NCBI RefSeq assembly: GCF_004363235.1
Contig: NZ_SNYW01000009.1
Span: 124,001 to 188,000, forward strand
Length of the DNA: 64,000 bases
Direction of reading: 5' to 3'
DNA from: Dongia mobilis
GTDB taxonomy: Bacteria > Pseudomonadota > Alphaproteobacteria > Dongiales > Dongiaceae
Shown here: piece after piece, positions 46,642 to 63,484 of the stretch
Numbering within the stretch: the stretch's first letter is position 1
How the letters are laid out: every line of letters begins with the position of its first letter
The notes under the pieces: generated by a model
What the model was told of the DNA's origin: nothing
Database searches by the model: none
The model's input: only the letters and a program-made list of their open reading frames with translations
Position numbers and translations under genes: made by a program

Positions 46642-46675
46642 CGGGCGACAATGGGCCTGGCGGGTTGCTGCTGCA

Positions 46676-47986: not shown

Positions 47987-48115
47987 GGAGCGGCTCCCGA
48001 CTCGGATCTTATCAAGTCTGGCCCCATTCCACAGGGCCATTTGCGACAATCTAGGCGGTAATGCAGCAGGCAGCCAAGGGTGCAGGCAGGGCCGAAACGG
48101 GGGGCCAGCCAGTGC

Positions 48116-48916
48116 CTATTGCGGCGCGGTTTCCCGGCGACGCAGTATTTCGCTGACCAGTTCGAAATCGGCTGGCTTGTCGACATCGATCGGCGCCTCG
48201 GGGAAAGGCAGCAGAACCGGGCGAATCCGGGCGCGGGCAAGGCGCGAGACATGGGCAAAGGCGTCTTCCAGTCCCAGGTTGCCCAGGGCCACACGGAAAA
48301 GTGCCAGCGGGCCGATTTCCCAGATCAGCCGCAAGGGCTTCTTGCGATGGCGCTCCATGCGGCGCCAGAACAAGGCGACGTCGCGCGCCCGGCCGGTTCG
48401 TGCCAGGAACAGGTTGCAGCCCGACACGCGCAGTTTCCCGAACCGGTAGAAGGTGCGGATGGCGCCGGGATAGGCAGCACTCACGATTGCCGCATCGGCA
48501 AGCCCGACGGCAAGGTCGCAGTCGGCCGGCGCCTGGCCAAGTATATGTTCCACCATGGCGACGCTCAGCAACGGATGGTCGGCGGTCGTCACCAGCAGAG
48601 GCAGATCGAGGCCGATTTCATCGAGCGATCGCGCAAGGCTCGCCGCGGGACTCTCCGCCGGCGGGATGATGCGCAGGCGTCCGGCATCCCGCGCGTCGGC
48701 AAGTCCCGGGATATGGTCGAGCAGCGCCGCGTCATCGATGCACACATGGACCGCGCCGATGCCTGGCACGGCGCTGAGGGTCCGATAGAGCCGGAGCAGC
48801 ATCGGCACACCGTTGATCGCGGCAATGGCCTTGTGGCTGACACCGGCCATCTGGGCAACGGAATCGCCCTCGCGCCGGTTGCCGGCCAGAACCAGTGCGT
48901 TGCAGGCGATGCTCAT
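48116..48916 (-). CDS. MobA-like NTP-transferase in the sphingolipid island
   Basis: 266 residues. Rossmann-like nucleotidyltransferase: LVLAGNRREGD (8-18) replaces the usual Gly-rich GGxGxRM loop, with Lys29 (HKAIAAINGVPMLLR) and the metal-binding Asp114 in TTADHPLL retained. Such proteins activate sugars or alcohol phosphates with CTP or GTP. It overlaps the upstream ceramide-synthase-like gene by four bases (ATGA), so it belongs to the lipid operon. It probably supplies an activated head group or precursor. Molybdenum cofactor synthesis is possible in principle but does not fit the neighbours. Confidence 0.72.
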   Translation of the reverse strand: MSIACNALVLAGNRREGDSVAQMAGVSHKAIAAINGVPMLLRLYRTLSAVPGIGAVHVCIDDAALLDHIPGLADARDAGRLRIIPPAESPAASLARSLDEIGLDLPLLVTTADHPLLSVAMVEHILGQAPADCDLAVGLADAAIVSAAYPGAIRTFYRFGKLRVSGCNLFLARTGRARDVALFWRRMERHRKKPLRLIWEIGPLALFRVALGNLGLEDAFAHVSRLARARIRPVLLPFPEAPIDVDKPADFELVSEILRRRETAPQ

Positions 48917-50061
48917 CCGCCGCCCGATGCCAGGGCTTTTTCAAAGAGCCGATAGGTCTTGTAGGGCCGGGCACCGATACCCTCGATAACCCGCCGCATC
49001 GGCATGTTGTCTTCCAGAATCCAGGATAGCTCGACCCGCTCCAGGCCACGCTTCAGGAACGGCTCCTTCAGGCGCTCGAACATCAGCGGCAGCAGGGCGG
49101 CGCCCAGGATCGAGCCGTGATGCGTCTTGCGGATGCCCATCAGGGGGATGCGGGCACTGGTCAGCGTCTTGCGCTTGAGGCGCCAGAGCAGCTTGAAGAG
49201 GTTGAACGGCAGCAGCGAGCCGTCGAAATCGCGGATCGCCTCCATCAGATTGGGCAGACAGACCAGCATGCCGGCTGCCTCGCCCTTGACTTCGGCTATG
49301 ACCACGAGGTCGGGGTCGATGAGCGGCCTCATCGATTTGGCAGCGGCGGAGATCTCCGCCTCGGTGAACGGCACCATGCCCCAATTGTCGCTCCAGGCGT
49401 CATTGAAGATATCGAGGATGACGCGCAGGTCGCGGGCATAGTTCTTCATGTCGAGGCCGCGCAGGCGCACGGTGCCGTCGGCCTGCCATTTCTGCAGCAT
49501 GCGCGACGAGCCCATGGGCTTGTACATGCTCTCGTCAACCTCATAGGCGATGACGTCCTTGACCTTGGCCAGGCCGGCCCGTTCAACATGCTCCGCGGCA
49601 TAGTTCGCATGGTAGGGCATCATCAGCATGGGCCGTGACGCAAAGCCCCCGACCAGCAGGCCGGTTTCCTCGTTGCTGGAGAAGCTGAACGGACCGACCA
49701 TACGATGCATCCCGCGCGCGCGCAGCCAGTCGGCCGCGGCCGCCAGCAGGGCCTCATAAACGGCGCCATCGTCGATCGCATCGAGCCAGCCGAAATGACC
49801 GGTGCCGGGACGTTTCTCCTGCTCCAGCCGGCAAATCTGCGCCGAGATGCGACCGACCGGATGTCCGTCCCGGAGCGCCAGGAAAAGCTCGGCCTCGGCA
49901 TGGGCGAAATACGGGTTCTTCTTGCGGGACAGGACCTCACCACGCTCCATGTCGAGCGGTGCTACATAACCCGCATCGCCGCGATAAAGCTCCTTCGGCA
50001 AGGCGATGAACTGCTTCAGCCGCTCGCGGCCGGCGACGGTGACAACCTCGATCCTTGCCAT
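48913..50061 (-). CDS. Bacterial ceramide synthase (bCerS), GNAT superfamily
   Basis: 382 residues from the ATG at 50061; a longer reading from 50139 is rejected. Signature of the YghO-like GNAT branch that contains Caulobacter bCerS: LYRGDAGYVAPLDMERGEVL, KKNPYFAHAEAELFLA and GRISAQI. Then MVGPFSFSSNEETGLL and a C-terminal ELSWILEDNMPMRRVIEGIGA acyl-CoA-type fold. bCerS N-acylates the 3-oxosphinganine made by serine palmitoyltransferase. All other backbone genes are within 15 kb. Often misannotated as a generic N-acetyltransferase. Confidence 0.8.
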   Translation of the reverse strand: MARIEVVTVAGRERLKQFIALPKELYRGDAGYVAPLDMERGEVLSRKKNPYFAHAEAELFLALRDGHPVGRISAQICRLEQEKRPGTGHFGWLDAIDDGAVYEALLAAAADWLRARGMHRMVGPFSFSSNEETGLLVGGFASRPMLMMPYHANYAAEHVERAGLAKVKDVIAYEVDESMYKPMGSSRMLQKWQADGTVRLRGLDMKNYARDLRVILDIFNDAWSDNWGMVPFTEAEISAAAKSMRPLIDPDLVVIAEVKGEAAGMLVCLPNLMEAIRDFDGSLLPFNLFKLLWRLKRKTLTSARIPLMGIRKTHHGSILGAALLPLMFERLKEPFLKRGLERVELSWILEDNMPMRRVIEGIGARPYKTYRLFEKALASGGG

Positions 50062-50071
50062 GTTTGGCTTG

Positions 50072-50860
50072 TTATTCCGCCGGGCCGTTATGCGTGGCGT
50101 CGGCATTCGCCCGGAAGCGGCGCGGGTTGCCGTCCCCACGCGTGTTGTTCGAGAGCTGCGCTACCCAAGGATAGCGCTGCGCCATTTCCGCGGTGTAGCC
50201 GATGTTGAAAACCGTCGGCGACTTCGGGACCATATTCGCCTTCGGGTAATAGGTGTTGCCGAGCCGGTCCCACAGAAAGTTGGTGATGCCGAAATTGCCC
50301 TGTTCGTTGTGGAAATGATGCCACATGTGAAGCTGCTTGAGGCGCTTCATGAAGCGGGTCTTCGGGCTGGTGTTGAGGTGCTGCACGCAGTGGCAGAACT
50401 CGTAGAAGCAGGTGGTCAGGAGGCCGGCGGCAAAGGCCATGGCAGCACCGGAGAGGCCACCGACCAGATAGCCGATCGGCAGGGTGACGATGGCAATGGT
50501 GGGGATGGTCGTATAGAGCGCGCCGAACAGCACGACCAGATTGTGCGGGTCCTGGTGATGGTCGAAATGGATCCGCTTCCAGGCCTTGGCGGTCAGTGGC
50601 GATTTGTAGAGAAACTGGCTGTGCAGCACCCAGCGATGCAGCACGTACCACACCAGCGGGTAGACGATGATGGTGAGGCCCGTGGCAATCAGCAGCGGCA
50701 GCCAGCCCTCGAACCAGCGCTGGACGAGATAAAGGCTGATCGCGGCAAGGCCGAGATAGGCATGGACAGCGGGATAGGTCGCGAATGCCTTCACGAGGTC
50801 CGCCATGCCCATGCGGGCAAGGTTGTGGGTGCGGTCTTTCCAGAAGCCGAAACGGAGCAT
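50072..50860 (-). CDS. Fatty acid hydroxylase / sterol desaturase family membrane protein
   Basis: 262 residues from the ATG at 50860. Several hydrophobic helices and the di-iron histidine boxes: HRWVLH, HFDHHQ, HCVQH and HMWHHFH. Members hydroxylate or desaturate lipids at the membrane (for example ceramide C4 or fatty-acid C2). It is ten bases upstream of the ceramide synthase gene, so a hydroxylase acting on ceramide or its acyl chain is inferred. The position of hydroxylation cannot be read from sequence. Confidence 0.83.
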   Translation of the reverse strand: MLRFGFWKDRTHNLARMGMADLVKAFATYPAVHAYLGLAAISLYLVQRWFEGWLPLLIATGLTIIVYPLVWYVLHRWVLHSQFLYKSPLTAKAWKRIHFDHHQDPHNLVVLFGALYTTIPTIAIVTLPIGYLVGGLSGAAMAFAAGLLTTCFYEFCHCVQHLNTSPKTRFMKRLKQLHMWHHFHNEQGNFGITNFLWDRLGNTYYPKANMVPKSPTVFNIGYTAEMAQRYPWVAQLSNNTRGDGNPRRFRANADATHNGPAE

Positions 50861-50973
50861 GATCGGGCGACTCGCTGCCTGTCGTTGGTGGAATTGTCTG
50901 CGTGGCCGGTAATCTAGTTGGATCAAGGAATTACGGCAAGCAATCCCTCCCGGGGGCCAGCCGGGTGCGCGGC

Positions 50974-52188
50974 TTAGTCGCGCGGCCTGTCGAAGGTCAA
51001 GATCCAGGCGGTGCGAAGGCCGTGATAGGCGCAGGTAGCCGCCTGCCAGAAAACAATGAAATAAAACGCTTCGATTGCATATCCGACCGCATAAGCTACT
51101 GTGAATAAAGGAAGATTGATGTTGCGGCGTGAAATGAAGGTGCGCACGAAGCCGTCCAGCGGCCGATGCGTGTGCAGGCCTCGTTTGAACTTCGCCCGGT
51201 AGACCGCCAGGATCAGCCGGTCGAGGATATAGAGCGCCAGCATGATCCACGCCGCCTGCCACAGCGGCTCGGCCCAGGATACCGTCGCCCAGCCGCCCAG
51301 CAGACCGGCCGCCCAGCCAAAATACCAGAAGGGCGGGTGCACGATGTCGAGGCCGTGGTCGAGGACATTGCCGATGGCGGAATCGGTGAAGGTGAGGCGC
51401 GCCAGCTTGCCGTCGACGGAATCCAGAACGCTCATGCCGTAGGCGCAGGCGAAGCTCCACCAGAAATGACCGCCGGCAGCCAGTGGCACAGCCAGCAGGG
51501 TCAACACAATGCTGACCAGGGTGACGGCATTGGGGTGGATGCGCGCCCGCGCCAATGGCGGCACCAGTGCCCAGACCAGTGGCGGGTAGACGTATTTGGT
51601 GAAAAAATCGGTGGAGCCCTTGTAGTTCGACCAGAACAGGAAGCGCTCGACCGATCTGCGTTCGGCCCCATTCGTGACCGCGAATAGGTAGAAGGGTAGC
51701 GTCCGGCGCAGCTTGGCGACGAAAGCGGGGAAATCGTCCTGCCGGATTTCCGGAAGCGTGGCGGCGGTGGCGTCCAGTGTCGGCGCGGCGATCAGCAGCG
51801 GCGCATCGTCCGGCTCGATCCGCGCGATGACGGCGCGGTTTTCCCGGGCGGCACCGCTTGCCTTCTGGTCGGCCAGGAACCGGTACAACCTGCCATCGGC
51901 CAGGGTCGTCGCGTCGGTGGCAATCAGCGGCTCACCGGCAGAAAGTGCGCGCCGCAGCCGCTCCGTTGTGCTGCCGCTCTCGCGCAGGATGCGGACGGGA
52001 CAGCCCAACCCGGGTTCCCCACGAAAAGCCGGGGTCGTGGCCGCATCGCCAATGTCGATGATGACTTCGGAGAGCGCCAGTTTCTGATGCCGTGCCGCCT
52101 TGAGGTGACGCTCGATCAGCGTCATGCCGAACACGCGTTCCGTGGCCGCGGCACCTTCCAGGTGCGCGGCATCGATCCACAATTTCAT
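50974..52188 (-). CDS. CDP-alcohol phosphotransferase with N-terminal degenerate NTP-transferase-like domain (paralog 1)
   Basis: 404 residues. The CDP-alcohol phosphotransferase motif is complete: Asp256, Asp259-Gly260, Ala263-Arg264, Gly273, Asp277 and Asp281, followed by HPPFWYFGW. About six membrane helices lie in 205-390. Residues 1-170 look like a nucleotidyltransferase core (GMTLIERHLKAA, EPLIATDATTLADGRLY) but lack the Gly-rich NTP loop, so that part may be inactive or a binding domain. It exchanges a CMP on an activated lipid or alcohol for another alcohol. It sits between the hydroxylase and lptG in the lipid operon and has a paralog at 55789. Confidence 0.83.
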   Translation of the reverse strand: MKLWIDAAHLEGAAATERVFGMTLIERHLKAARHQKLALSEVIIDIGDAATTPAFRGEPGLGCPVRILRESGSTTERLRRALSAGEPLIATDATTLADGRLYRFLADQKASGAARENRAVIARIEPDDAPLLIAAPTLDATAATLPEIRQDDFPAFVAKLRRTLPFYLFAVTNGAERRSVERFLFWSNYKGSTDFFTKYVYPPLVWALVPPLARARIHPNAVTLVSIVLTLLAVPLAAGGHFWWSFACAYGMSVLDSVDGKLARLTFTDSAIGNVLDHGLDIVHPPFWYFGWAAGLLGGWATVSWAEPLWQAAWIMLALYILDRLILAVYRAKFKRGLHTHRPLDGFVRTFISRRNINLPLFTVAYAVGYAIEAFYFIVFWQAATCAYHGLRTAWILTFDRPRD

Positions 52189-52192
52189 GACG

Positions 52193-53284
52193 CTAGTAGC
52201 CCTCCTGCCGGATCAGCCAGGTGCCGCCGATCGCTGCGAACAGCAGGATCGGCAGCCAGGCGGCGAGGAAAGGCGGTACCGCGCCCGATTCACCCAGGGC
52301 CAGAACCAGGCCGTCCGTCACGAAATACAGGAAACCGAGGCTGAACCCGATGGTGACACCCATGGCAAGGCCTCGTTCGCGACGCTGCAGCGAATGCGCC
52401 ACCGGTGCCGCCAGCAGGATCATGAGGATCGCACTGACAGGCTGGGCAATGCGCTTCTGCAGCCAGGTCTCGTAGAAATAGGTCGGCCGCACGCCAACCT
52501 GGGTCGAGGTCACCAGATCGTTCAGCTTGGCGAACGACATGGCCTGCGGTCGCTCGACCAGATCGGAAAACTCGGCCGGTGTCAGAACCGTGTCCCAGGG
52601 CTGGCTTTCCGTGTACTCGGTTTGCACCGGTTGCTGCTTGATGATGTGCGTCGTCCAGACCCGCAGCAGGGTCCAGGTTTCGCTGGCAATGTCGAAACGC
52701 GCTTCGTCGGCGAAAACTTCGGAAACGATATTGCCGCCCGCATCGCGTTCGTAGATGCGCACGTCATTGAGACGATTGCCGTCATGCGAGATGCCGCCGG
52801 CCTCGACCACGCTGGAGCCGTCCTGCACGAAAAGTGAATCGCCCTCGTCCTTGTTCGGCGCCCTGGCAAACTCCGCTTCAAGCTCGAATGTAATCAGGGC
52901 CTGGCTGGTGCGCGGTACGACCTGGTCGGCAAGCACGAAATGCAGCACGGCAACCAGGCCGACCGCCGGCAGGAAGGCCCAGAGAATGGAGAAGTAGGGC
53001 GCACCGGCAGCCTTGTAGGCCATGATCTCGTTGGCACGCTCCATGCGCCCCAACGTGGTAAGCGTGCTCATCAGGACGACGAACGGCACCAGGAAGGAGG
53101 CAATCTCCGGGAGGCGCAGGACGGCGTATTCGAACACTGCGGAAATGCGCCCGCCATGGTCCCGCAGGATATCGGTGCTGTTGCTGAGCAGATCGAACAA
53201 TTGCAGCAGTGCCGTGAAGCTGATGAGGAACAGTCCGAACTGAACCATGAAGCTTCTGAGAACGTAGCGGCTGAAAGTGTTCAT
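52193..53284 (-). CDS. LptG-like permease (YjgP/YjgQ family), sphingolipid-island copy
   Basis: 363 residues. Membrane helices at both ends (about 12-35, 60-80, 100-120 and 275-360) enclose a beta-jellyroll periplasmic domain, as in LptF/LptG. N-terminal RYVLRSFMVQFGLFLISFTALLQ. LptF/LptG partner with the LptB ATPase to extract lipid from the inner membrane. It overlaps the LptF-like gene by four bases. Location amid ceramide genes, away from lptD or pepA, suggests transport of sphingolipid and not LPS. Confidence 0.88.
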   Translation of the reverse strand: MNTFSRYVLRSFMVQFGLFLISFTALLQLFDLLSNSTDILRDHGGRISAVFEYAVLRLPEIASFLVPFVVLMSTLTTLGRMERANEIMAYKAAGAPYFSILWAFLPAVGLVAVLHFVLADQVVPRTSQALITFELEAEFARAPNKDEGDSLFVQDGSSVVEAGGISHDGNRLNDVRIYERDAGGNIVSEVFADEARFDIASETWTLLRVWTTHIIKQQPVQTEYTESQPWDTVLTPAEFSDLVERPQAMSFAKLNDLVTSTQVGVRPTYFYETWLQKRIAQPVSAILMILLAAPVAHSLQRRERGLAMGVTIGFSLGFLYFVTDGLVLALGESGAVPPFLAAWLPILLFAAIGGTWLIRQEGY

Positions 53285-54495
53285 GAGGACGCCTCCGCCT
53301 TGCGGCGCGGCAAGCGCTTACTGACCATGGCGGTGGCCCAGCGCGAAGCGTCACCGACGGCATCGAATACATGGGCCAGCGGATCCGCGCCGGGTCTTCC
53401 GTTGGTCATGTGGAAGAGCCATGTCGTGGAAATCGCGAACACCAGAAAGGGAACCCACAGAACCAGGAACGGCCCGGCGAGTTGCTCGCCCACGGCATCG
53501 TGACCGAATTGCAGGATCTGGAAGTAGCCGACCAGGAACAATGCCCCGAAGGTGACGCGCAGGCTCTTCGATGTGCGTCTGGACGACACCCCCAGCGGCA
53601 TCGCGAGGAGCGGCAGGAACAATATGGAAAGGATCCGCACCAAACGGCTGTTTATTTCGGCCTGCAGGTCCTCGAGGTCGTGTTCCGGCGACTTTGCGAA
53701 ATACGCCTCGACTAGTTCGACCAGATCCAGCTCGCTTTCCTTTTCGCCGCGGCTGCGGAACGGTTCCACCACCGCAGATTCCATCGGCAGTTCGAGTACG
53801 GTGAACTCGACCGACCGCGCATTCGTCGTGCCCGGCATGGATTCCAGTCGCGTCCCGTTGCGCAGCGTGAGTAGCAGTTGAAGCGACCCGCTGCCGGCGC
53901 GCGTGAGTTGTCCGGATTCTGCCGTGATGATCACGTCGCGACCCTGGTCGTCCTTTTCCTTCACGAAGACCTGAGATAAGACCCGGCCGCCATCGGAAAT
54001 ATCGCCGATCAGAATGGTTTTGCCGCCGAAGCCCGAAAAGAAGGCGCCACGTTCGATCGCCGAATCCCACGCGGTCTCCACCACCAGATGGACAAGCCCG
54101 CGATACGCCCAGCGCGTATGCGGCTGCAGAAATCCCATGATGTAGGTGCTGGCGATAACCAGGACGATGGTCAATCCCATGATCGGCACCATCAGCCGGC
54201 GGAGAGAGAGGCCGCTGGCACGCATGGCGTCAAGTTCGCTGTCGGATGACAGTCGCATGCTGGCGAACAATACGCCGACGAACAGTGCCGCCGGCAGCGC
54301 GATGCCGAGATAATGCGGCACCAGGTTGGCCAGCATCCTGATGATGATGTCGAGCGGTCCGCCACGATTGGCAAACAGGTCGAGGAGGCGGATGAGACGC
54401 TCGAGCAGCAGGGCGGCCATGGCAATGCCGACGGCCGCCAGTAATGGCAGCGAAACGCGCTTCAGCAGGTAGAAATCGATCCGCGACAAGGTCAT
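53281..54495 (-). CDS. LptF-like permease (YjgP/YjgQ family), sphingolipid-island copy
   Basis: 404 residues with the same plan as its partner: helices near 12-35, 55-80 and 100-125, a periplasmic jellyroll (about 130-270) and three C-terminal helices. RIDFYLLKRVSLPLLAAVG at the start and SVEFTVLELPME in the jellyroll. The cytoplasmic coupling region SSDSELDAMRASGLS is typical of LptF for contact with LptB. No lptB or lptC gene lies in the window, so the pair would use the housekeeping ones or an unlinked ATPase. Confidence 0.88.
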   Translation of the reverse strand: MTLSRIDFYLLKRVSLPLLAAVGIAMAALLLERLIRLLDLFANRGGPLDIIIRMLANLVPHYLGIALPAALFVGVLFASMRLSSDSELDAMRASGLSLRRLMVPIMGLTIVLVIASTYIMGFLQPHTRWAYRGLVHLVVETAWDSAIERGAFFSGFGGKTILIGDISDGGRVLSQVFVKEKDDQGRDVIITAESGQLTRAGSGSLQLLLTLRNGTRLESMPGTTNARSVEFTVLELPMESAVVEPFRSRGEKESELDLVELVEAYFAKSPEHDLEDLQAEINSRLVRILSILFLPLLAMPLGVSSRRTSKSLRVTFGALFLVGYFQILQFGHDAVGEQLAGPFLVLWVPFLVFAISTTWLFHMTNGRPGADPLAHVFDAVGDASRWATAMVSKRLPRRKAEASS

Positions 54496-54618
54496 GGCCG
54501 GACCGTCCGGTTGCGCCGGCCAGTATTGGCGTCAGCGGCGGGCCCGGGCGCCGCCGTGTTTGTCCTTGCCTTCTGCCATCTCGCGGCGCGGGTCGTCATT
54601 TGCTCAATCATCCTTGGC

Positions 54619-55614
54619 CTACGCGGTCGCCGCTGCCGCCCCCGGCTGGTCCGCACTCGGAGAATAGGCCTTTTGCGGGCCAGATGTCAGGGGGATCGCC
54701 ATGGACATGCGCCCCTGCCGCTCGAAGCCGTCGGCCGCAGCGTTGAGGCCGCGGATCTCAACATCCAGTGACCACGAATCCGGTTCCTTACGGATGGTAT
54801 AGAGATGGTATCTTGCCGGATCCTTGTGGCCGGCCCTGACGGCCGATGCAGACGGAACCCCGAAAACCGGAACCGGGCCGACCGCGGTGGCGATGCGGCC
54901 GAGACCGGAGACATGGGTATGTCCGTGCAGCACAAGTTCCGCGCCGGCTTCCGCTATGACTTCCTGAAACGCCTTTGCGTCCAGCAGCGATTTGCGCTTG
55001 TAGGCACCACCGCCAAAGGGCGGATGGTGGATCAAGACGATCCGGAACAAGCCGTCTGCGCCCGCCGTCCGCAGCTGGCCGGCAAGGCGTTCGCATTGTT
55101 TCGCGCCGAGACGCCCCGCTGCAACGAAAAGGGGCATGGGCAAGGCCGTCGTCGTACCGATCAGGGCGACGGGGCCAAGGCGCCGGGTGAAGGGGAAATC
55201 ATCATGGGAACGGGGCAGGCGGTCGTCTTCCCCCGGCTGGCGCTGACCACGCATGTAGGGAGCCCAGAGGGAGAGGGATTCCTGCCACGGCACGTCGACA
55301 TAGGCGTCGTGATTTCCCGGTATGACGGTCACACGGTCTGCCGGGCCAAGTGTGGAAAGCCACTCGGCCGCGGCGGTGAACTCCGCCGGCAGGGAGATGT
55401 TCACCAGATCGCCGGTGACGACGGCGTGATCCCAATTCTGCCGGGCAAGATCCGCTGTCAGCAGGTCGAGGACGTCGCGCCGGTGTATCCGGATACGATT
55501 CTGGGTCCAGGACAAAAATCCTGAAAGACGCTTGTTCAACAGTGCCGGCCATTCGGCCTGAGGCAACGGGCCCAGATGGGGATCGCTGAGATGCGCCAGA
55601 ACAAAAGCCGTCAC
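54619..55614 (-). CDS. Metallophosphoesterase in the sphingolipid island
   Basis: 331 residues from a GTG at 55614 with AAGGAAAGG upstream; an ATG at 55641 adds nine residues. Calcineurin-like motifs in order: LSDPHLG (Asp11, His13), VVTGDLVN, GNHDAY, LIHHPPFGG and LHGHTH. It hydrolyses a phosphomonoester or diester; lipid, nucleotide and sugar substrates all occur in the family. Divergent from the second CDP-alcohol phosphotransferase. A phosphatase for a phosphorylated head-group intermediate is possible but not shown. Confidence 0.84.
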   Translation of the reverse strand: MTAFVLAHLSDPHLGPLPQAEWPALLNKRLSGFLSWTQNRIRIHRRDVLDLLTADLARQNWDHAVVTGDLVNISLPAEFTAAAEWLSTLGPADRVTVIPGNHDAYVDVPWQESLSLWAPYMRGQRQPGEDDRLPRSHDDFPFTRRLGPVALIGTTTALPMPLFVAAGRLGAKQCERLAGQLRTAGADGLFRIVLIHHPPFGGGAYKRKSLLDAKAFQEVIAEAGAELVLHGHTHVSGLGRIATAVGPVPVFGVPSASAVRAGHKDPARYHLYTIRKEPDSWSLDVEIRGLNAAADGFERQGRMSMAIPLTSGPQKAYSPSADQPGAAAATA

Positions 55615-55643
55615 TGCATTTGACCCTTTCCTTCCGGTCATAT

Positions 55644-55695
55644 CGGTCGATCCCGACCGGTTGGTCAATCTGGACTGTATGGTCAACAATCTGCC
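55644..55695. promoter_or_regulatory. Operator candidates in the divergent promoter of the sphingolipid island
   Basis: CGGTCG-N4-CGACCG (55644-55659) is a perfect inverted repeat. It is followed by an imperfect direct repeat, GGTCAATCTG (about 55663-55672) and GGTCAACAATCTG (55681-55693). These lie in the 174-base gap between the metallophosphoesterase and CDP-alcohol phosphotransferase genes. GGTCA/GGTCG words are concentrated here. The bound regulator is unknown. Confidence 0.35.
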
Positions 55696-55788
55696 GGTAT
55701 GACGGTCGCTCGCCGCCGATTTGGCTAGACGGCAGTCCAATTCGGGTTTAACTAAGCCCCGATTTCCCGCGGACTTACACAAAAACGC

Positions 55789-56913
55789 ATGCCAAATCAA
55801 TCGGATAGTTGGCCCGATCCCACCTTTCTGAACGAGTCTGATGCCGCCATCTGGGGGCTGACGCCGCGCGCGCGGTTGGAACGCGCGCTCCGTCGCGCCC
55901 AGTCCGGGGCAGGGGAGGCGGCCAAGCCGGGAAAACTGGTGTTCCGGGCAGACATGGTCCTTCACGAGAGCCTAGTGCGCGCGCTGGTGTGCCGGCCGGG
56001 CACAGTTTTGACGGATGATCGAGGCAGGCCGGTCGCGGGCCATGGGCGGGACGAGGCCGAAGGCGAAATTATTTCCGGCACCATCAAGGCCGAACGGATG
56101 CCGCATGCGGGGTCGGACCTAGTCGTCGTCGATGCTGCCGGGCTAACCGGCACCTACGACCAGGCCCTGCGCCGCAAGGGGGCGCCGTATCTATTTTCTC
56201 TCGAGACACAGTCGCCGGCCGAGATCGAGCGGCGCATGTATCTCGAGTCCTACAAGGGGGTCACCGATCTGGTGACCAAATATGTCTGGCCCGAGCCGGC
56301 CTTGCTGGTGACGCGGTTCTGTGCCGGACGCGGCATCTCGCCGAACATGGTTACACTCGTCAGTTTTCTGTGCGTCGTGCTGGCGACGTGGCTGTTTGCC
56401 GTCGGGCAGTTTGGCCTCGGCTTGGTCGCAGCCTGGGCGATGTGCTTCCTGGATACGGTCGACGGCAAGCTTGCCCGCTGTACCCTGACCTCCAGCAAAT
56501 GGGGCAACGTATTCGATCACGGCACCGACCTCATTCATCCCCCCTTCTGGTATTGGGCCTGGTATGTCGGCCTCGGCGGTGCTGCCGTCGTCGATCCCTG
56601 GATCTTCTGGGTCATTATCGCCGGCTACATCCTGGGGCGCGGCCAGGAAGGGCTGTTCATGTGGCAGTTCGGCATCGAGATGCATATCTGGCGGCCACTG
56701 GATTCATCCTTCCGCCTGATCACTGCAAGGCGCAATCCGAACCTCATCATTCTCAGCGTCGCGGTGGCATTCGGGGCGCCCGATACCGGCTTCGAAATCG
56801 TCGCCTGGTGGACCATTCTCAGCTTCCTGTTCCATTGCGTCCGAATAGCGCAGGCCTTCATGGCGCGCGCTCAGGGTGCGAGGCCGGTATCATGGCTGAT
56901 GGATCGCGCATGA
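55789..56913 (+). CDS. CDP-alcohol phosphotransferase, head-group enzyme (paralog 2, CpgA-like position)
   Basis: 374 residues. Motif complete: Asp222, Asp225-Gly226, Ala229-Arg230, Gly239, Asp243 and Asp247, then HPPFWYWAW. The N-terminal 140 residues are a divergent NTP-transferase-like domain, followed by YKGVTDLVTKYVWP, which matches YKGSTDFFTKYVYP of paralog 1. First gene of a three-gene plus-strand operon with a lipid kinase and a Tam41-like nucleotidyltransferase. That order beside spt recalls the cpg genes for ceramide phosphoglycerate in Caulobacter. It likely joins an activated ceramide to a polar alcohol. Confidence 0.82.
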   Translation: MPNQSDSWPDPTFLNESDAAIWGLTPRARLERALRRAQSGAGEAAKPGKLVFRADMVLHESLVRALVCRPGTVLTDDRGRPVAGHGRDEAEGEIISGTIKAERMPHAGSDLVVVDAAGLTGTYDQALRRKGAPYLFSLETQSPAEIERRMYLESYKGVTDLVTKYVWPEPALLVTRFCAGRGISPNMVTLVSFLCVVLATWLFAVGQFGLGLVAAWAMCFLDTVDGKLARCTLTSSKWGNVFDHGTDLIHPPFWYWAWYVGLGGAAVVDPWIFWVIIAGYILGRGQEGLFMWQFGIEMHIWRPLDSSFRLITARRNPNLIILSVAVAFGAPDTGFEIVAWWTILSFLFHCVRIAQAFMARAQGARPVSWLMDRA

Positions 56914-57872
56914 ACGACGTCCGGATCGGCGTCATCAGCAACGCCCACAGCAAGCGCAACAAGCGCTCGATGCGCGAGATCCATGCCCTGCTCCTGGAGC
57001 ATCCGCAGGTCCTGCATCGCAGTTTCGACCACATTTCCGAATTGCCCAATTGCTTGAAGGAAATGGCTGCCGCCAGGGTGACGCATCTGGTGATCAGCGG
57101 CGGCGACGGTACCGTGCTGGCCGCCATTTCGAGCCTGATCAACAATTCGCCATTCCGGACCCAGCCAAGCCTCAGCCTGCTTTCCGCCGGGATGACCAAT
57201 GTCATTGCCCATGCGGTCGGGCAGCCGGGCCTGCCGGCGACGGGATTGCGGCGTCTGGTAATCCGGGCGGAAGCCGGGACCAGTGCACAGGTCCTCGAAC
57301 GCCCGGTGCTGTCGGTTGATTTCGGCGACGGTCGCCCCATCGAGCGGGGCTTTCTCATCGGTGGGATCGGCTTCTATCAGGGAACGCAGCTCGTCCGGCG
57401 CGATATCCATTCCCTGGGTGCCAAGCAGACTTTTGCGGCAAAGCTCGGCATCTTCTGGTCGATCCTGAAAATTCTCGCCTTCGGCGCCGGTCCGCGTTCC
57501 GGCTTTCACGGCGAGGAAATCGGACTATCCCTCGACGGACGACAGGAGAGGCGGAACTGCTTCATGTTTCTCTGTTCCACGCTGGACGAGATCCTGCCAG
57601 GCGTCAGGCCCTTTTGGGGAACGGGTACCGGTCGCCTCAGACTCACCACAATCGACTCGCCGCCACGGCGGTTTGCCCTGGCGGCGCCGGCCGTGCTGCG
57701 CGGGCGGCCGCGTCCCTGGATGGCCGAGTCCGGTTATCTCAGCCGCCGCTCCGAACGGCTGGAGATCGAGATCGCCTCGCCGGTCATGATTGATGGCGAG
57801 AAATTCGACCCGCCGGAGAGCGGCCGGATCACGGTCACGGCCGGTCCTGTCGTAAGATTCCATCGCTACTGA
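56910..57872 (+). CDS. Diacylglycerol/ceramide kinase family protein (CpgB-like)
   Basis: 320 residues from the ATG at 56910, which overlaps the previous stop as ATGA. DAGK catalytic domain: NAHSKRNKRS near residue 11, the ATP-binding SGGDGTVLAAIS (GGDGT at 64-68) and LSAGMTNVIA. It phosphorylates a lipid hydroxyl with ATP. A bacterial ceramide kinase of this superfamily is known from the Caulobacter sphingolipid locus, and the gene order here is the same, so ceramide 1-phosphate is the predicted product. Confidence 0.8.
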   Translation: MNDVRIGVISNAHSKRNKRSMREIHALLLEHPQVLHRSFDHISELPNCLKEMAAARVTHLVISGGDGTVLAAISSLINNSPFRTQPSLSLLSAGMTNVIAHAVGQPGLPATGLRRLVIRAEAGTSAQVLERPVLSVDFGDGRPIERGFLIGGIGFYQGTQLVRRDIHSLGAKQTFAAKLGIFWSILKILAFGAGPRSGFHGEEIGLSLDGRQERRNCFMFLCSTLDEILPGVRPFWGTGTGRLRLTTIDSPPRRFALAAPAVLRGRPRPWMAESGYLSRRSERLEIEIASPVMIDGEKFDPPESGRITVTAGPVVRFHRY

Positions 57873-57886
57873 AGGAATCGTGCCAA

Positions 57887-58795
57887 ATGGCCACCGATGC
57901 CGTCGCCACCTTGATTGCCGGGGAACTGGGCCAGCCAATCGCGCCGGCAGCCCTGGCGATGGCCGAGCATTGTCGCGCCCGTCATGGCAAGGCTGCGATC
58001 GCCGTCCTTTTTTATGGCTCGTGCCTGCGCCAGTCCGAACAGGCGCTGGCTGACGCCCTGCTCGATTTTTATGTCGTCGTGGACGATTACGGCACGGCCT
58101 TCGACAGCCGCCTGATGGCCCTGGCGAACCGCCTGCTGCCACCCAACGTCTTCTATGTCGAATTGCCCTGGCAGGGGATCACCCTCAGGGCCAAATATGC
58201 CGTGATGTCGCTCGACCAGTTCGCCGCGGGCTGTGCGCGGTCGGCCGGCAATGTCTCCATATGGGCGCGGTTTTGCCAGCCGGCGCGGCTGGTCTGGGCC
58301 GACAGTGCCGCGACACAGCATGCGCTTGCCGCGGCACTCGCCGACGCTTGCCGTACGATGCTTTGGCATGCCTGGCCGACGGAAACGGGCGGCAAGGTCA
58401 TCGAGGCGGACAGCCTGCAGGTCTGGGAGAATGGCTTCCGGCGCACCTATGCAGCGGAGATCCGCTCTGAGACCGGCGAGCGTGCGCGCGCCCTCGTTGC
58501 CGCGGACAAGGTGCGCTATCAGCAACTGGCCCGCATGATTCTGCCGGAGCTGCGCCGCTCGGGAGCCGCCGGAGAGGGTGTCTGGCGGCGGCGAGGCGTG
58601 ATCGGCAAGTCGCTGAACTTCCTGCGCCTGGTCAAGGCCGCCTTTACCTTCGACGGCGCCGTTGACTATGTGCTGTGGAAGGTACGCCGCCATTCCGGCG
58701 TGGTTGTTCCGGTCAGCGACTGGCAGCGGCGGCACCCGCTCCTGGCAGCGCCGGGACTGGCGTGGAAGCTCTACCGCCTGGGCGCGTTCCGCTAG
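57887..58795 (+). CDS. Tam41-like nucleotidyltransferase (candidate ceramide-phosphate cytidylyltransferase)
   Basis: 302 residues, 14 bases after the kinase. The nucleotidyltransferase core is LFYGSCLRQS (Gly44-Ser45) with LLDFYVVVDDY (Asp60, Asp66) as metal ligands. This resembles Tam41, the mitochondrial phosphatidate cytidylyltransferase (GS..., D-x-V-V-D pattern). There is no membrane helix. The natural step between the kinase and the CDP-alcohol phosphotransferase is transfer of CMP to ceramide 1-phosphate; that function is inferred from order and motif, not demonstrated. It corresponds in position to cpgC. Confidence 0.7.
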   Translation: MATDAVATLIAGELGQPIAPAALAMAEHCRARHGKAAIAVLFYGSCLRQSEQALADALLDFYVVVDDYGTAFDSRLMALANRLLPPNVFYVELPWQGITLRAKYAVMSLDQFAAGCARSAGNVSIWARFCQPARLVWADSAATQHALAAALADACRTMLWHAWPTETGGKVIEADSLQVWENGFRRTYAAEIRSETGERARALVAADKVRYQQLARMILPELRRSGAAGEGVWRRRGVIGKSLNFLRLVKAAFTFDGAVDYVLWKVRRHSGVVVPVSDWQRRHPLLAAPGLAWKLYRLGAFR

Positions 58796-58852
58796 AAAGA
58801 AAGGGCCGATGCGATGCATCGGCCCAATAGACAGGTCGTTGGTATGCTGGAT

Positions 58853-60073
58853 TTACTCGGCGGCAACCGCATGCGCCGGGGTCGGGAGGATGCCAAGTTC
58901 GCGGCCAACGCCACTCAGGACATCGACCACGCTCTGCAGCTGTTCCTTGGTGTGCGCGGCGGAAACCGAACAGCGGAGCAGGGCGGTGCCGGATGGTGTC
59001 GCCGGCGGCAGCGCCAGATTGACGTAGACGCCGTTCAGCAGCAGGGCGCGCCAAGCGCGCGCCGCCAGGGCCGGGTCATTGATGTGGACCGCCACGACCG
59101 GACCCTTCTGTGCGCCGACCGTAAAGCCAGCGGCGCGGGCGCCTTCGTAAAGCGTGTCGACATTGTCCCACAGCTTTTGCATCAGGCCGGGATTGGCGCG
59201 CAGCTTGGCCAGCGACTTGCGGACCGAGGCCACAGTCGCGGGCGGCAGTGACGCAGTAAACATATAGGGGCGGCAGGCGACCCGAAGGATGTCGAAATCC
59301 TCGATGTTGGAGACGAGGAAGCCGCCAATGGCGCCCATGCTCTTCGAGAAGGTGCCGGTGATGAAGTCGACCTGGTCGAGCACCCCGTCATGTTCGACGA
59401 CACCCTGGCCGGTCTTGCCCATGACGCCCATCGAATGGGCCTCGTCGACCAGGATGTAGGCGCCATGCTTCTTGGTCACCGCAACGAATTCTTTGAGCGG
59501 CGCATGGTCGCCCAGCATCGAATAGATGCCTTCGACCACGACAATCTTGTTGCCGGGCTCGTTCGCAAGCCGGCCGAGGCGGCGATCTAGGTCCGCCGGA
59601 TCATTGTGCTTGAAACGGATCACGGTCGCGGAGCCGAGCTTGCAGGCATCATAGATGCTGGCATGGCTGTCGGCGTCGATGATCAGGAAGTCGTTGGGTC
59701 CGGCGAGGGTCGAGATGGCGCCGAGATTGGCCTGATAGCCGGTGGTGAACACCATGCAATGCTTCATGCCGTAGAAATCGGCCAGGTCCTGCTCCAGCGC
59801 CTTGTGGTCGTGATAGGATCCATTGGCGATGCGCGAGCCGGTGGTGCCAGTGCCGCAGGTATCGAGCGTTTCCTTTGCCGCCTCGATGCAATCGGCATCA
59901 AAGGTGAAGCCAAGATAATTGTTCGAGCCGCACAGGATGGTGGGCCGGCCCTCGATCAGGGCTTCGGTGGCGGAGAGAATTTTCTCCATCTTCACACCAA
60001 AGGGATCGGCGCCGCAGCTCTTCACCTGGGCATGCAGCTCGCGCTGCGCCTTGAAGCGATCCAGCAACCCCAT
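58853..60073 (-). CDS. spt: Serine palmitoyltransferase-like alpha-oxoamine synthase
   Basis: 406 residues. PLP-dependent alpha-oxoamine synthase: His137 in DADSHAS, Asp210/His213 in LVDEAHSMG and the PLP lysine Lys244 in GTFSKSMGAIGG. The family includes KBL, AONS and HemA. The SPT choice rests on ACP immediately upstream (gap three bases), ceramide reductase and acyl-ACP synthetase genes, and a ceramide synthase nearby. It condenses serine with acyl-ACP or acyl-CoA to 3-oxosphinganine in the cytoplasm. Confidence 0.87.
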   Translation of the reverse strand: MGLLDRFKAQRELHAQVKSCGADPFGVKMEKILSATEALIEGRPTILCGSNNYLGFTFDADCIEAAKETLDTCGTGTTGSRIANGSYHDHKALEQDLADFYGMKHCMVFTTGYQANLGAISTLAGPNDFLIIDADSHASIYDACKLGSATVIRFKHNDPADLDRRLGRLANEPGNKIVVVEGIYSMLGDHAPLKEFVAVTKKHGAYILVDEAHSMGVMGKTGQGVVEHDGVLDQVDFITGTFSKSMGAIGGFLVSNIEDFDILRVACRPYMFTASLPPATVASVRKSLAKLRANPGLMQKLWDNVDTLYEGARAAGFTVGAQKGPVVAVHINDPALAARAWRALLLNGVYVNLALPPATPSGTALLRCSVSAAHTKEQLQSVVDVLSGVGRELGILPTPAHAVAAE

Positions 60074-60076
60074 TGT

Positions 60077-60316
60077 TCAAGCCCCCTTCTTGGATTCGAT
60101 CACGGTGCGGGCCAACTGACCGACCGTGGCAATTTCCGGCACCATGTTGAGCGGGATCGAGACATCGAACTTGTCCTCGAGCTCCATCAGCAGATCCATC
60201 ACCGCCAGCGAATCCATGTTGAGATCCTGCGCGATGTCGGTATCTGCGGTGATGGCAATGTCGCCCTTCTTGAATGGCTGCAGGGCGATGGCGATCTCCG
60301 CCACCACTGCGTCCAT
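60077..60316 (-). CDS. acpR: Acyl carrier protein for sphingolipid synthesis
   Basis: 79 residues from the ATG at 60316. This places the phosphopantetheine serine at position 36 (NMDSLAVMDL), exactly as in E. coli ACP. A GTG at 60355 would add 13 residues; neither start has a strong ribosome-binding site. Helix 2 MDLLMELEDKFDVSIP and acidic surface fit ACP. Three bases before spt, so it is likely the dedicated acyl donor for SPT, loaded by the acyl-ACP synthetase two genes upstream. Confidence 0.85.
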   Translation of the reverse strand: MDAVVAEIAIALQPFKKGDIAITADTDIAQDLNMDSLAVMDLLMELEDKFDVSIPLNMVPEIATVGQLARTVIESKKGA

Positions 60317-60504
60317 GGACAAATTCGCCACTTGCTGAGCCGCACTCGCCGTCACTGTGCCAACCAATCTTTTTCTGTCTGCGCCGGAATTTGGTGAACT
60401 CCGGGAATCTGCTAAATTCGGGAACCCCTTAGAGGACACGTGATTCGTGCCTCGCCCCACGGGTAAGTTGTCTTAAATTTCGCCGCCAACGTTAAATGAC
60501 AAAT

Positions 60505-60521
60505 TGTTACCGAATGTAACA
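60505..60521. promoter_or_regulatory. Inverted-repeat operator candidate upstream of acp-spt
   Basis: TGTTAC-N5-GTAACA is a perfect six-base inverted repeat in the 243-base AT-rich gap between ceramide reductase and the ACP gene. The gap implies a separate promoter for acp-spt on the minus strand. No known regulator is assigned. Confidence 0.4.
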
Positions 60522-60559
60522 TCGTCTTGATTTCAGTCGGTTAGCGGCTTTTCCTCAAA

Positions 60560-61504
60560 TCACAGGAGAGAATGCCGTCGGTACCAGGCGGCGGTGTCCC
60601 TGAAGCCTTCAGCCAAGCCAAAGGCCGGCTGCCAATTAACCATTTCGGTCAGCCGCGGCCCCCCGGCAACCCAGTCCGGGTGGTAGAGTTCGGCGACCTT
60701 GGCAAGGGAAAGCACCATTGGCCGCCGGATCAGGCTGGCGCGAAGGCTGGCTGCCGCCGCAATTGGCAGGAAGAGTGGACGCGGAACCCTGATGCCAACC
60801 GGGCTGCGCCCGCAGGCGCCGGCCAGCGCCGACAGAATTCCCACCCAATCGTGCCCGGCGGGCGCACCGTCATCAATCTCGATCAGCCTTTCCTGCCAGG
60901 CCGGGGTGTCGAGGAGTGCGGCGATCGCTGCCGCAAGATCGGTGACGTGAACGACCGATACGCGGGCATTCCGTGCAGCCGGATAGGTTACGAGGCCGAG
61001 TTTTGCCGCCTGGAAGAGCGGAAGCAACTCCCGGTCGCCCGGGCCATAGATGGCTGGCGGGCGCAGGATCACCCAATCCCTTTGTCCGGCCCTGGCCTCG
61101 ACCATCTCCTCAGCGGCACGCTTGCTGGCGGCATAGGGGGAGAGGTGCGGCGCACGCGCGGCCAGCGAAGAAATGTGGATGAGCCGCGCCGCGGGCTCCC
61201 GCGCGGCTTCCGCCAGCAGGCATTCCGTACCGCCTGCATTGACGGTGGCAAACTCGGCCGGCGACAGCGCCTTTACCACGCCGGCGCAATGGATGATTGC
61301 GGTCGCGCCGGAAACCAGTCGGTGCAGGGCATCGCGGTCGTCGAGATCGCCGAGGACGATTTCTACATGCCGGTCGGGGCCCAGAACTGCCTGCGGCAGG
61401 CGCCTTGTCAGGATGCGCACCCGCCAGCCCTCCGCCAGCAGCCGCGCGGTCAGGGCGGCGCCGACAAAGCCGGTTGCCCCAGTGACGGCGACTATGCCAC
61501 GCAT
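60560..61504 (-). CDS. cerR: Ceramide reductase-like NAD-dependent epimerase/dehydratase family protein
   Basis: 314 residues. Extended SDR: GATGFVG loop (9-15), catalytic Tyr124/Lys128 in YAASK, and RPPAIYGPGDRE. Alone this would be a sugar epimerase or lipid dehydrogenase. Position between acyl-ACP synthetase (18-base gap) and acp-spt matches CerR of Caulobacter, which reduces the 3-oxo group of the N-acylated intermediate. Confidence 0.8.
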   Translation of the reverse strand: MRGIVAVTGATGFVGAALTARLLAEGWRVRILTRRLPQAVLGPDRHVEIVLGDLDDRDALHRLVSGATAIIHCAGVVKALSPAEFATVNAGGTECLLAEAAREPAARLIHISSLAARAPHLSPYAASKRAAEEMVEARAGQRDWVILRPPAIYGPGDRELLPLFQAAKLGLVTYPAARNARVSVVHVTDLAAAIAALLDTPAWQERLIEIDDGAPAGHDWVGILSALAGACGRSPVGIRVPRPLFLPIAAAASLRASLIRRPMVLSLAKVAELYHPDWVAGGPRLTEMVNWQPAFGLAEGFRDTAAWYRRHSLL

Positions 61505-61522
61505 CAGGGCTTGCGCCGCTGG

Positions 61523-63262
61523 TCAGGCACTGATGCTGAATTCGGCGTTGGCATAGTGACCGGCCAGAAAATTCGCCTTCGCCTTGGCACGCGACAGCTT
61601 GCCGGAAGAAGTCTGCGGCAGGCCCTTGGGCGGCACCAGCTCCACCCGCGCCTCGACCGACATGGATCGCTGCAGCAATGCCGCCACATCCTGCTTCAGC
61701 TTGGTGCGTGCCGCCAGATCGGCGACGCGGCACTGCACCAGAATGACGACCTGCTCCTCGTCATTGTCGCCGAGCATCGAAAAGGCCGCAGTATCGCCGC
61801 GGCGCAAATCCGGCAGGGTCTCGGCGGTCCATTCCAGATCCTGCGGCCAGATATTGCGGCCATTGATGATGATGAGGTCCTTGGCGCGGCCGGTTATGAC
61901 GATCTCGCCATCCAGCAGATAGCCCAGATCGCCGGTGTTCAGCCACCCATCCGGACCGATTGCCTCGGCGGTCAGTTCAGGCTGACCGAAATAGCCGCTC
62001 ATGACGCTGGGCCCGCGGAAGAAGATGCGGCCGATCCGCCGCTCCGGCAGCAGGGCGCCGGATTCATCGCGGATCTCGAAGGCATGGCCGGGCAGGGCCT
62101 TGCCGCAGGCGACAAGCGCGCGCGCCTGGCGCCCGGGCTCGACCGGGGTTGCGACCTGGTCTTCCAGGTCGCCACGATCAATGTGATCGACGTGATAGGC
62201 GCGGTCGAGCGGCGCGAAGCTCATCGCCAGCGTCGTCTCCGCCATGCCGTAACTCGGCACGAATGCCTCGTGATGGAACCCGAACGGGCCGAAGGTCTCG
62301 CTGAAGCGACGCAGGATCGGATCCTGGACCATGTCGCCCCCAATGCCTGCCGCGCGCCAGCAACCTAGGTCGCCAGAAAACTCCGTGCCGCCGCGCATGC
62401 GCTTGGTGCAGAGTTCGTAGCCGAAGGTGGGCGAATAGGCGAGGCTGCCGCGATTTTCGGCGATCAGTTTCAGCCAGGTCAGCGGCCGGCGGGCGAAATC
62501 GCGCGTGGCGATGTAATCCACGGAAACCTGTCCGGTCGCGGGCACCAGCAGGAAGCCGACCAGGCCCATGTCGTGATAGAATGGCAGCCACGAGGCGCAG
62601 CGGTCGGATTCGGTAATATTGAGGCCAAAATGGGTGATGGCGTAGGCGTTGGCCATCAATACGCGCTGGTGGATCTCGATGCCTTTGGGAAAGCGCGTCG
62701 AGCCGGACGAATATTGAAGGTAGCCCGGTTCGTCGGCGGCGAACGGCTTGAGGTCGGCGTCGCGGGTCGGTAACGCCATGAAATCCGCGGCGCTGGCCGC
62801 CATCCGCACGTGATCCAGTCCCTTCACCGCTTCGGCGAGAAAGCCGAGCAACGATTGCGGCGCCATCGCAAGGCTGGCCTCGCAACCCGCAATCTGCTGC
62901 CGAAGCTGCGCGACATAGGCATCCCGACCGCCGAGGCTGGTCGGAATTGCGACCGGCACGGGCAGCAGCCCGGCATACTGCGTGGCGAAGAAGGCCGTCA
63001 CGAAATCCATGTCTGTGTCGGCAACAAGGACAATGCGCGAGCCGCGCTGCAACCCCAGACCGAGGAACCGGCGAGCCATGTCCTGCGCCCGATCACGCAG
63101 CTCGGCGTAGGAAAACACCGCCTGGAGATCACCCTTGGCCGAGTAGAAATTGAGCCCCGTCGCGCCCTTTGCCGCATAATCCAGAGCCTGCCAGAGCGTG
63201 TCGAAATCGCTGCGACGATGCGGGAGGCTGCTATTCGTTGTGGGCGTCGGTTTGAGGGTCAT
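61523..63262 (-). CDS. Fatty acyl-AMP ligase / acyl-ACP synthetase for sphingolipid synthesis
   Basis: 579 residues from the ATG at 63262; the ATG at 63322 adds 20 residues. Adenylating enzyme: YLQYSSGSTRFPKG P-loop near residue 165, YGMAETTLAMSF, and LINTGDLGYL-like WLNTGDLGYLLDGE followed by INGRNIWPQDLEW. The look is that of fatty acyl-AMP ligases, which load acyl chains on an ACP and not on CoA. With acp, spt and cerR it forms the backbone module. It should charge the neighbouring ACP with the fatty acid used by SPT. Confidence 0.86.
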   Translation of the reverse strand: MTLKPTPTTNSSLPHRRSDFDTLWQALDYAAKGATGLNFYSAKGDLQAVFSYAELRDRAQDMARRFLGLGLQRGSRIVLVADTDMDFVTAFFATQYAGLLPVPVAIPTSLGGRDAYVAQLRQQIAGCEASLAMAPQSLLGFLAEAVKGLDHVRMAASAADFMALPTRDADLKPFAADEPGYLQYSSGSTRFPKGIEIHQRVLMANAYAITHFGLNITESDRCASWLPFYHDMGLVGFLLVPATGQVSVDYIATRDFARRPLTWLKLIAENRGSLAYSPTFGYELCTKRMRGGTEFSGDLGCWRAAGIGGDMVQDPILRRFSETFGPFGFHHEAFVPSYGMAETTLAMSFAPLDRAYHVDHIDRGDLEDQVATPVEPGRQARALVACGKALPGHAFEIRDESGALLPERRIGRIFFRGPSVMSGYFGQPELTAEAIGPDGWLNTGDLGYLLDGEIVITGRAKDLIIINGRNIWPQDLEWTAETLPDLRRGDTAAFSMLGDNDEEQVVILVQCRVADLAARTKLKQDVAALLQRSMSVEARVELVPPKGLPQTSSGKLSRAKAKANFLAGHYANAEFSISA

Positions 63263-63484
63263 CTGTTCGTCGGCCTGTTCCGGGGGCGTTCGTTCCGGCG
63301 GGAATGAGACCTTCGGTCGCATTCGGATAAATTGCGCCAGGGCCTTGCTATCCTTAGGATTTTGCGGTCCATAGCAAAACTGCCGGCCAGGGACAAGGCA
63401 ATCCGGGGCCAGATCAAAGGAAGGTTGGGTTGAGTATGCAATTCAGCTTACACTTTCCTTACCATTACGTCGGGACCTATCGGA

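Follow-up and report, generated by a model that had tools for sequence, protein, structure and literature searches.

In Caulobacter crescentus, one region (CC_1168-CC_1152) holds acs, cerR, acp and spt, the cpgC, cpgB and cpgA set, a phosphoesterase gene, LptF2/LptG2 (CC_1156/CC_1155), a GNAT protein gene and a nucleotidyltransferase gene (PMC11324152; cited here, like PMC11087976, PMC10331486 and PMC12275187, from excerpts). Ceramide is phosphorylated there by the kinase CpgB, and CDP-glycerate is the product of CpgD (PMC12275187). An activated ceramide might come from CC_1161/CpgC, with a further, so far unknown enzyme perhaps being required for the condensation (PMC11324152). The same excerpts treat sphingolipid transport to the outer membrane as unknown, with LptF2/LptG2 proposed for it and not studied, and PMC11087976 states that a flippase or transporter had yet to be identified. 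Some bacteria that lack lipopolysaccharide (LPS) make sphingolipids, Sphingomonas among them (PMC11324152, citing earlier work). Here we report a region of this kind from Dongia mobilis, located at 48116-63322 of a 64,000-nucleotide window (contig NZ_SNYW01000009.1, positions 124,001 to 188,000), which is part of a 4.19 Mb assembly (G000) rated 100% complete. Judged from its genes, it is a real and conserved locus of the Caulobacter type, predicted to make a phosphosphingolipid, and its LptF/LptG pair (LptFG) is a candidate exporter of that lipid.

The locus itself is of a kind already described from Caulobacter; its setting is the new part. The first-pass annotation had read the region as a sphingolipid island in Caulobacter order, which profiles and relatives bear out, and had counted a hydroxylase, a second head-group set and a transporter as additions. 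Of these, the PF04116 hydroxylase inside the cluster and two further two-domain CDP-alcohol phosphotransferases (AP2, and AP3 outside the window) stand as differences from Caulobacter, whose N-acyl hydroxylase CC_0202 sits apart from its sphingolipid cluster, whereas the transporter does not, LptF2/LptG2 having already been described there (PMC11324152). The Dongia island also has one nucleotidyltransferase after the GNAT gene and not two (the rest of the genome was not searched for another). Unlike in Sphingomonadales, where the genes are scattered according to the same excerpts, the head-group genes and LptFG are clustered with spt.

The host gave no match to LpxC, LpxK or KdtA, LpxA, LpxB and LpxD not having been searched for; in the Caulobacter control genome, LpxC, LpxK and KdtA were all matched. 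The island LptFG is the only pair above the cutoff in the host genome. Serine palmitoyltransferase (SPT) was above the curated cutoff in all 17 family genomes examined, of which 13 lack LpxC, including all seven of the genus (present in G007, G008, G010 and G014; LpxC-lacking G016 is just 68% complete). KdtA is absent from 14 of the 17 (present in G008, G010 and G014) and LpxK from nine of the 11 searched (present in G008 and G010). LptC is kept in 17/17 genomes and LptD in 11/11 searched. Among 13 family genomes searched for LptFG, there were two matches above the cutoff in each of ten without LpxC and four in each of three with it; G005 had one further match under the cutoff. The second pair of the LpxC-bearing G007, G008 and G010 lies between pepA and lptD (pepA|lptF lptG lptD surA), and the same site without the canonical pair (pepA|lptD surA) was found in six of the seven LpxC-lacking genomes examined (G001, G002, G003, G005, G006 and G009). 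The comparison of lptD sites covered 10 of 14 fetched stretches.

The two kinds of pair are distinct in sequence. The 160 LptFG-like frames collected were reduced to 159 longer than 250 amino acids, to 117 without duplicates from overlapping loci, and to 60 first-gene rows. In the tree of these LptF proteins, built without Caulobacter's own named LptF2, 31 island-type and 29 canonical rows split at 100/100. All 18 typed genomes with SPT and without LpxC had the island type alone, and all 17 with LpxC and without SPT had the canonical type alone (G018, G044 and G066 were typed from the first gene of the pair only). Nine genomes with both SPT and LpxC had both types; the other eight were represented by one fetched pair each, and an island-type pair is seen in two of them (G138 and G173).

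The same pattern was seen across the class, of which 289 genomes were sampled in a single draw. SPT was called at an E-value up to 1e-100 in 40 of them; 39 were above the curated cutoff and the 40th scored 495 bits, and the E-value threshold alone is not proof because the control Escherichia coli also matches at that value. There were 243 genomes with LpxC and 266 with LptFG at an E-value no higher than 1e-20. LpxC was missing from 24 of the 40 genomes with SPT and from 22 of the 249 without (p = 1.8e-12). At least four LptFG genes were found in 15 of the 16 genomes with both SPT and LpxC, in none of the 24 with SPT and without LpxC (p = 4e-10), and in one of the 249 without SPT (G038). Twenty of the 24 had two LptFG genes, one had three and three had none. 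The 40 genomes with SPT represent 23 families, of which 11 have LpxC in the draw and 12 do not, the host's family being in fact mixed, and these p-values are too small because the genomes are related. An SPT tree was calculated from 48 of 53 genomes with SPT, of which 45 bear both traits (G086, G095, G260 and G288 had no fetched locus, and that of G016 was short); on this tree, LpxC changes seven times.

In the explanation that we propose, acs, acp, spt, the GNAT gene and cerR would make ceramide, which the kinase would phosphorylate. The cpgC-like protein, the CDP-alcohol phosphotransferases, the nucleotidyltransferase and the phosphoesterase would add an anionic head group, and LptF2/LptG2 would hand the finished lipid over to the usual Lpt bridge, of which LptC and LptD are kept. 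Having crossed to the outer membrane in this way, the sphingolipid would take the position of LPS in its outer leaflet, in the host as in the majority of its family. The enzyme activities, the head-group chemistry and the sphingolipid cargo of LptF2G2 we infer from sequence. Because key LPS genes are absent and only the island LptFG pair is kept in the host and most family genomes, the sphingolipid may well form the outer surface; with lipid A synthesis and the canonical LptFG pair both gone, it is the most likely outer-leaflet lipid. We give a probability of roughly 0.77 to the reading in which LPS has been replaced by an anionic sphingolipid exported through the island LptFG. A relation between LPS loss and LptFG was absent from the searchable titles and abstract openings of the literature, many subscription papers lying outside them.

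Several observations weigh against this reading, which is drawn from gene content. G007 has LpxC and a canonical LptFG and gave no match to LpxK or KdtA; its assembly, 94% complete, may be missing genes, or LPS loss may have reached an intermediate stage there. In the host, the seventh LpxC-lacking genome examined, lptD adjoins neither pepA nor surA, and the empty canonical site is not seen there for that reason. In the class-wide LptFG searches, at most six candidates per genome were scored. On the SPT tree, 200 pairings gave four to five of five independent pairs in the same direction and none in the opposite one (p 0.0625-0.125). The typing leaves out LpxC-lacking G095, G209, G247, G258 and G288, and for G146, G174, G181 and G277 the type was judged from similarity alone. 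G094 has SPT and LpxC yet only two LptFG genes, and G081, G293 and G086 have SPT with no match to LpxC or to any LptFG, so sphingolipid genes without any LptFG do exist. G081 (L262), G293 (L263) and G094 have ceramide genes with no match to the kinase, the cpgC-like protein or LptFG within 20 kb round spt, which hints weakly that the second LptFG pair goes with the head-group rather than the ceramide genes. As an excuse for these three genomes this is weak, because kinase, cpgC and LptFG are likewise missing from 11 of 18 spt stretches in the batch; eight of these come from genomes whose counts agree, or nearly agree, with the rule and whose genes may lie elsewhere.

One alternative is compatible with sphingolipid export and LPS replacement and, in our estimate, falls somewhat short of even odds: the head group would go beyond phosphoglycerate, the three two-domain CDP-alcohol phosphotransferases adding other alcohols or several units. 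The presence of three paralogues speaks for it, as do their profile neighbours, which include inositol-phosphate and archaetidylinositol synthases (all far under the cutoff), and matches to AP2 at 1e-10 in 20 of the 40 class genomes with SPT, mostly over the C-terminal domain alone; the kinase, the cpgC-like protein, AP1 and the nucleotidyltransferase instead resemble the Caulobacter CPG/CPG2 set, as far as the excerpts describe it (PMC11324152, PMC12275187). A second and improbable alternative is that LPS was lost and the outer leaflet consists mostly of another lipid or polymer (hopanoids, glycoglycerolipids or a capsule), which LptF2G2 would carry, the sphingolipid being minor. The evidence is gene content, and G081 and G293 keep ceramide genes without LpxC or LptFG, both of which would suit this explanation; against it, the LptFG counts track the presence of SPT and LpxC across the 289 genomes, and LptF2G2 sits among sphingolipid genes in most stretches (not seen for G160, G241 and G260). 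The remaining explanation, an ordinary accessory locus in an LPS-bearing host with a normal LPS exporter located here by chance, agrees with the published Caulobacter locus in order and content (PMC11324152, excerpts) but is already largely refuted and very improbable, since LpxC, LpxK and KdtA were not found in a 100%-complete assembly and the island LptF clade is separate from canonical LptF.

From 63322 down to 48116, the locus consists of acs, cerR, acp and spt on the minus strand, then the cpgC-like gene, the kinase gene and AP1 on the plus strand (transcribed in the order AP1-kinase-cpgC), and finally the phosphoesterase gene, LptF2, LptG2, AP2 and the hydroxylase, GNAT and nucleotidyltransferase genes, again on the minus strand. 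All gene classes that the first-pass annotation had named between 48116 and 63262 were found as open frames, nearly all of them matched by profiles. The acs frame opens at 63322; the earlier limit of 63262 corresponds to an ATG inside this frame, where the gene may actually begin. The island had also been called complete-looking, and the gene classes are indeed present, but it runs beyond the end of the window. The GC content of 48-64 kb (0.617-0.646) lies inside the range of the remaining window (0.574-0.680), and a recent acquisition by composition was rejected.

Synteny in related genomes had been suggested as a check, and the acs-cerR-acp-spt block is contiguous in 16/16 family stretches, window included, which makes the locus more than a chance arrangement; the 17th genome, G016, is represented by a short spt locus only. 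AP1-kinase-cpgC stands beside spt in 12 of the 16. In G007 it is on another contig, in G010 and G014 it is not between spt and the phosphoesterase gene, and in G004 the contig ends. Among 20 named loci, those of a Desulfurellaceae bin (L111), of Binatia (L112, L115) and of Ramlibacter (L113) have matches to the nucleotidyltransferase, AP1, an AP2/AP3-type protein, the cpgC-like protein and the kinase. A delta-proteobacterial AP-like gene (L117:198-1430), found as two tblastn pieces with an unalignable first half, may be frame-broken or misassembled; alignment A1 included L099 (start trimmed) and L117 (first half unaligned), and A4 omitted both.

Candidates for the ceramide steps are all found together, as had been claimed. 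The acs gene (61523-63322, minus strand) encodes a predicted fatty acyl-AMP ligase/acyl-ACP (acyl carrier protein) synthetase (NF006624, 811.5 bits, cutoff 600) and adjoins cerR-acp-spt in relatives. It is followed by a gene for a cerR-like reductase with an NAD-dependent epimerase fold (60560-61504, minus strand; PF01370, 114.4 bits), in a position like that in Caulobacter (PMC11324152), and by acp (60077-60316, minus strand), for a dedicated acyl carrier protein with a DSL motif (PF00550, 41.2 bits; start codon placed by eye). The product of spt (58853-60073, minus strand) passes the proteobacterial serine palmitoyltransferase equivalog NF047599 (652.6 bits, cutoff 500) and falls short of the alpha model NF047603 (506.9 bits, cutoff 670). 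The possibility that it groups with KBL or AONS was ruled out by the curated profile and by comparison with solved structures, where SPTs matched best (2w8j, 1.7e-138) and KBL reached just 3.7e-67. SPT-like genes of about 49-56% identity also occur on 23 plasmid-collection records (e.g. NZ_MG591698.1 and NZ_CP106839.1), 13 from Roseomonas, three from Escherichia (two being chromosome-sized records) and one from Klebsiella, among others. The GNAT-family protein (48913-50061, minus strand; PF00583, a weak 23.6 bits, cutoff 20.7) stands in the position of CC_1154 and is a probable bacterial ceramide synthase (bCerS); among solved structures nothing matched it significantly (best E 0.11), and its identity, like that of CerR, is assigned by fold and position. 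The gene for the membrane fatty acid hydroxylase-family protein (50072-50860, minus strand; PF04116, 74.8 bits; His boxes) adjoins the GNAT gene in many relatives.

The Caulobacter-type head-group set is represented by a kinase, a CDP-alcohol phosphotransferase, a phosphoesterase, one MobA-like nucleotidyltransferase instead of two, and CpgC by position only. The cpgB-like ceramide kinase (DAGK_cat, 56910-57872, plus strand; PF00781, 40.3 bits) has the DAGK fold and GGDG and lacks the eukaryotic CxxxCxxC, the combination reported for bacterial CERK in the excerpts of PMC10331486. Of the two nucleotidyltransferases that had been proposed, the MobA-like protein (48116-48916, minus strand; PF12804, 39 bits; TTHA0179, 2dpw, 6.7e-14) stands and is CC_1153- or CpgD-like, whereas for the cpgC-like protein (57887-58795, plus strand) neither Pfam nor NCBIfam gave a family match at E 0.001. 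Its probable nucleotidyltransferase fold is suggested by position and by a GS...LDF motif region that is conserved across 14 sequences. Its best PDB match, to a nucleotidyltransferase, was non-significant (E 1.2). Against Pfam, the 14 family members gave a best value of 0.0095 in one member, with Polbeta at 0.17 in one, and against NCBIfam the best was 0.0018, with NF041661 in three of the 14 and no useful match. A Tam41-like reading of the motif is conceivable. The metallophosphoesterase (54619-55641, minus strand; PF00149, 46.4 bits) is CC_1158-like.

Both CDP-alcohol phosphotransferases predicted in the window, the cpgA-like AP1 (55789-56913, plus strand; PF01066, 46.6 bits) and AP2 (50974-52188, minus strand; PF01066, 37.9 bits), were confirmed; like AP3, they have the complete catalytic motif DGxxAR(x8)G(x3)D(x3)D. 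AP1 and AP2 each have an N-terminal domain, and the two are related (hhalign probability 96.8%). AP3 is 53% identical to AP2, and relatives of AP2 at 74-76% identity include Dongia sp. and Dongia mobilis. The closest solved relative of AP2 is AF2299 (4o6m, 4.1e-9), followed by IPCT-DIPPS (4mnd, 3.2e-5), both of which have the CDP-alcohol phosphotransferase domain after an N-terminal domain, as in AP2; the similarity is significant over the C-terminal part only, the N-terminal match to 4o6m being non-significant. The N-terminal domains of 4o6m and, going by its title, 4mnd are of the cytidylyltransferase type. The extra CDP-alcohol phosphotransferases may be candidates for the condensation step. 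Beside AP2 lie the genes of the predicted export pair, LptF2 of the sphingolipid-type clade (53281-54495, minus strand; PF03739, 216.7 bits) and LptG2 (52193-53284, minus strand; PF03739, 254.7 bits), the two LptFG matches of the genome.

The island continues past position 64000. A conserved 661-amino-acid protein without Pfam match begins inside the window (63485-64000, plus strand; full frame L088:1486-3471) and is conserved in the genus. It is followed by two divergently oriented ABC exporters (PF00664, PF00005), AP3 and more conserved frames, and an Elm1-like gene (PF06258, L088:11350-12576) and an alpha-2-macroglobulin gene (L088:12829-18069) border the extended island. A weak match to a 2OG-Fe(II) oxygenase (L088:8994-9866, plus strand; PF13640, 23 bits, cutoff 27) may indicate a second oxygenase; the frame x8949m, probably the antisense of a plus-strand gene, was not counted. 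Conceivably, though we regard it as doubtful, a Dongia-type ceramide-anchored surface lipid fully replaces LPS via the Lpt bridge with a cargo-switched LptFG, AP2, AP3, the two ABC exporters, the Elm1-like protein and other conserved genes would extend ceramide by a longer chain, either glycan or phosphodiester, to give a sphingolipid counterpart of LPS, and lipid A would have been lost several times in alphaproteobacterial lineages owning the exporter. The extended module was not adopted as a mark of LPS loss, since the LpxC-bearing G007 and G008 carry parts of it.

Directly after the nucleotidyltransferase gene lie a class III aminotransferase gene (46676-48049, minus strand; PF00202), whose product is 90-93% identical among Dongia-group loci, higher than those of the sphingolipid genes, and a molybdopterin oxidoreductase gene (43735-46827, minus strand). 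At gathering score, Rfam gave a single match across the window, a manganese riboswitch (yybP-ykoY, RF00080; 10186-10305, minus strand; 51.2 bits).

The genomes compared here form a natural experiment: two LptFG pairs almost always accompany genes for both lipids, a single pair is usual where just one of the lipids is encoded, and the pair kept in sphingolipid makers without LPS is, where typed, of the sphingolipid type. The family appears to be a lineage in which a sphingolipid-type exporter has outlived the LPS genes, and genome comparison supports the proposal that LptF2/LptG2 is that exporter. The finding may also bear on polymyxin susceptibility, because in the excerpts of PMC11324152 the presumptive target of polymyxin in Caulobacter is CPG2. 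It names a candidate exporter, points to hosts in which an outer membrane free of LPS may be sought and offers a case in which the usually essential LPS would have been replaced, and the export of bacterial sphingolipids to the cell surface becomes directly testable.

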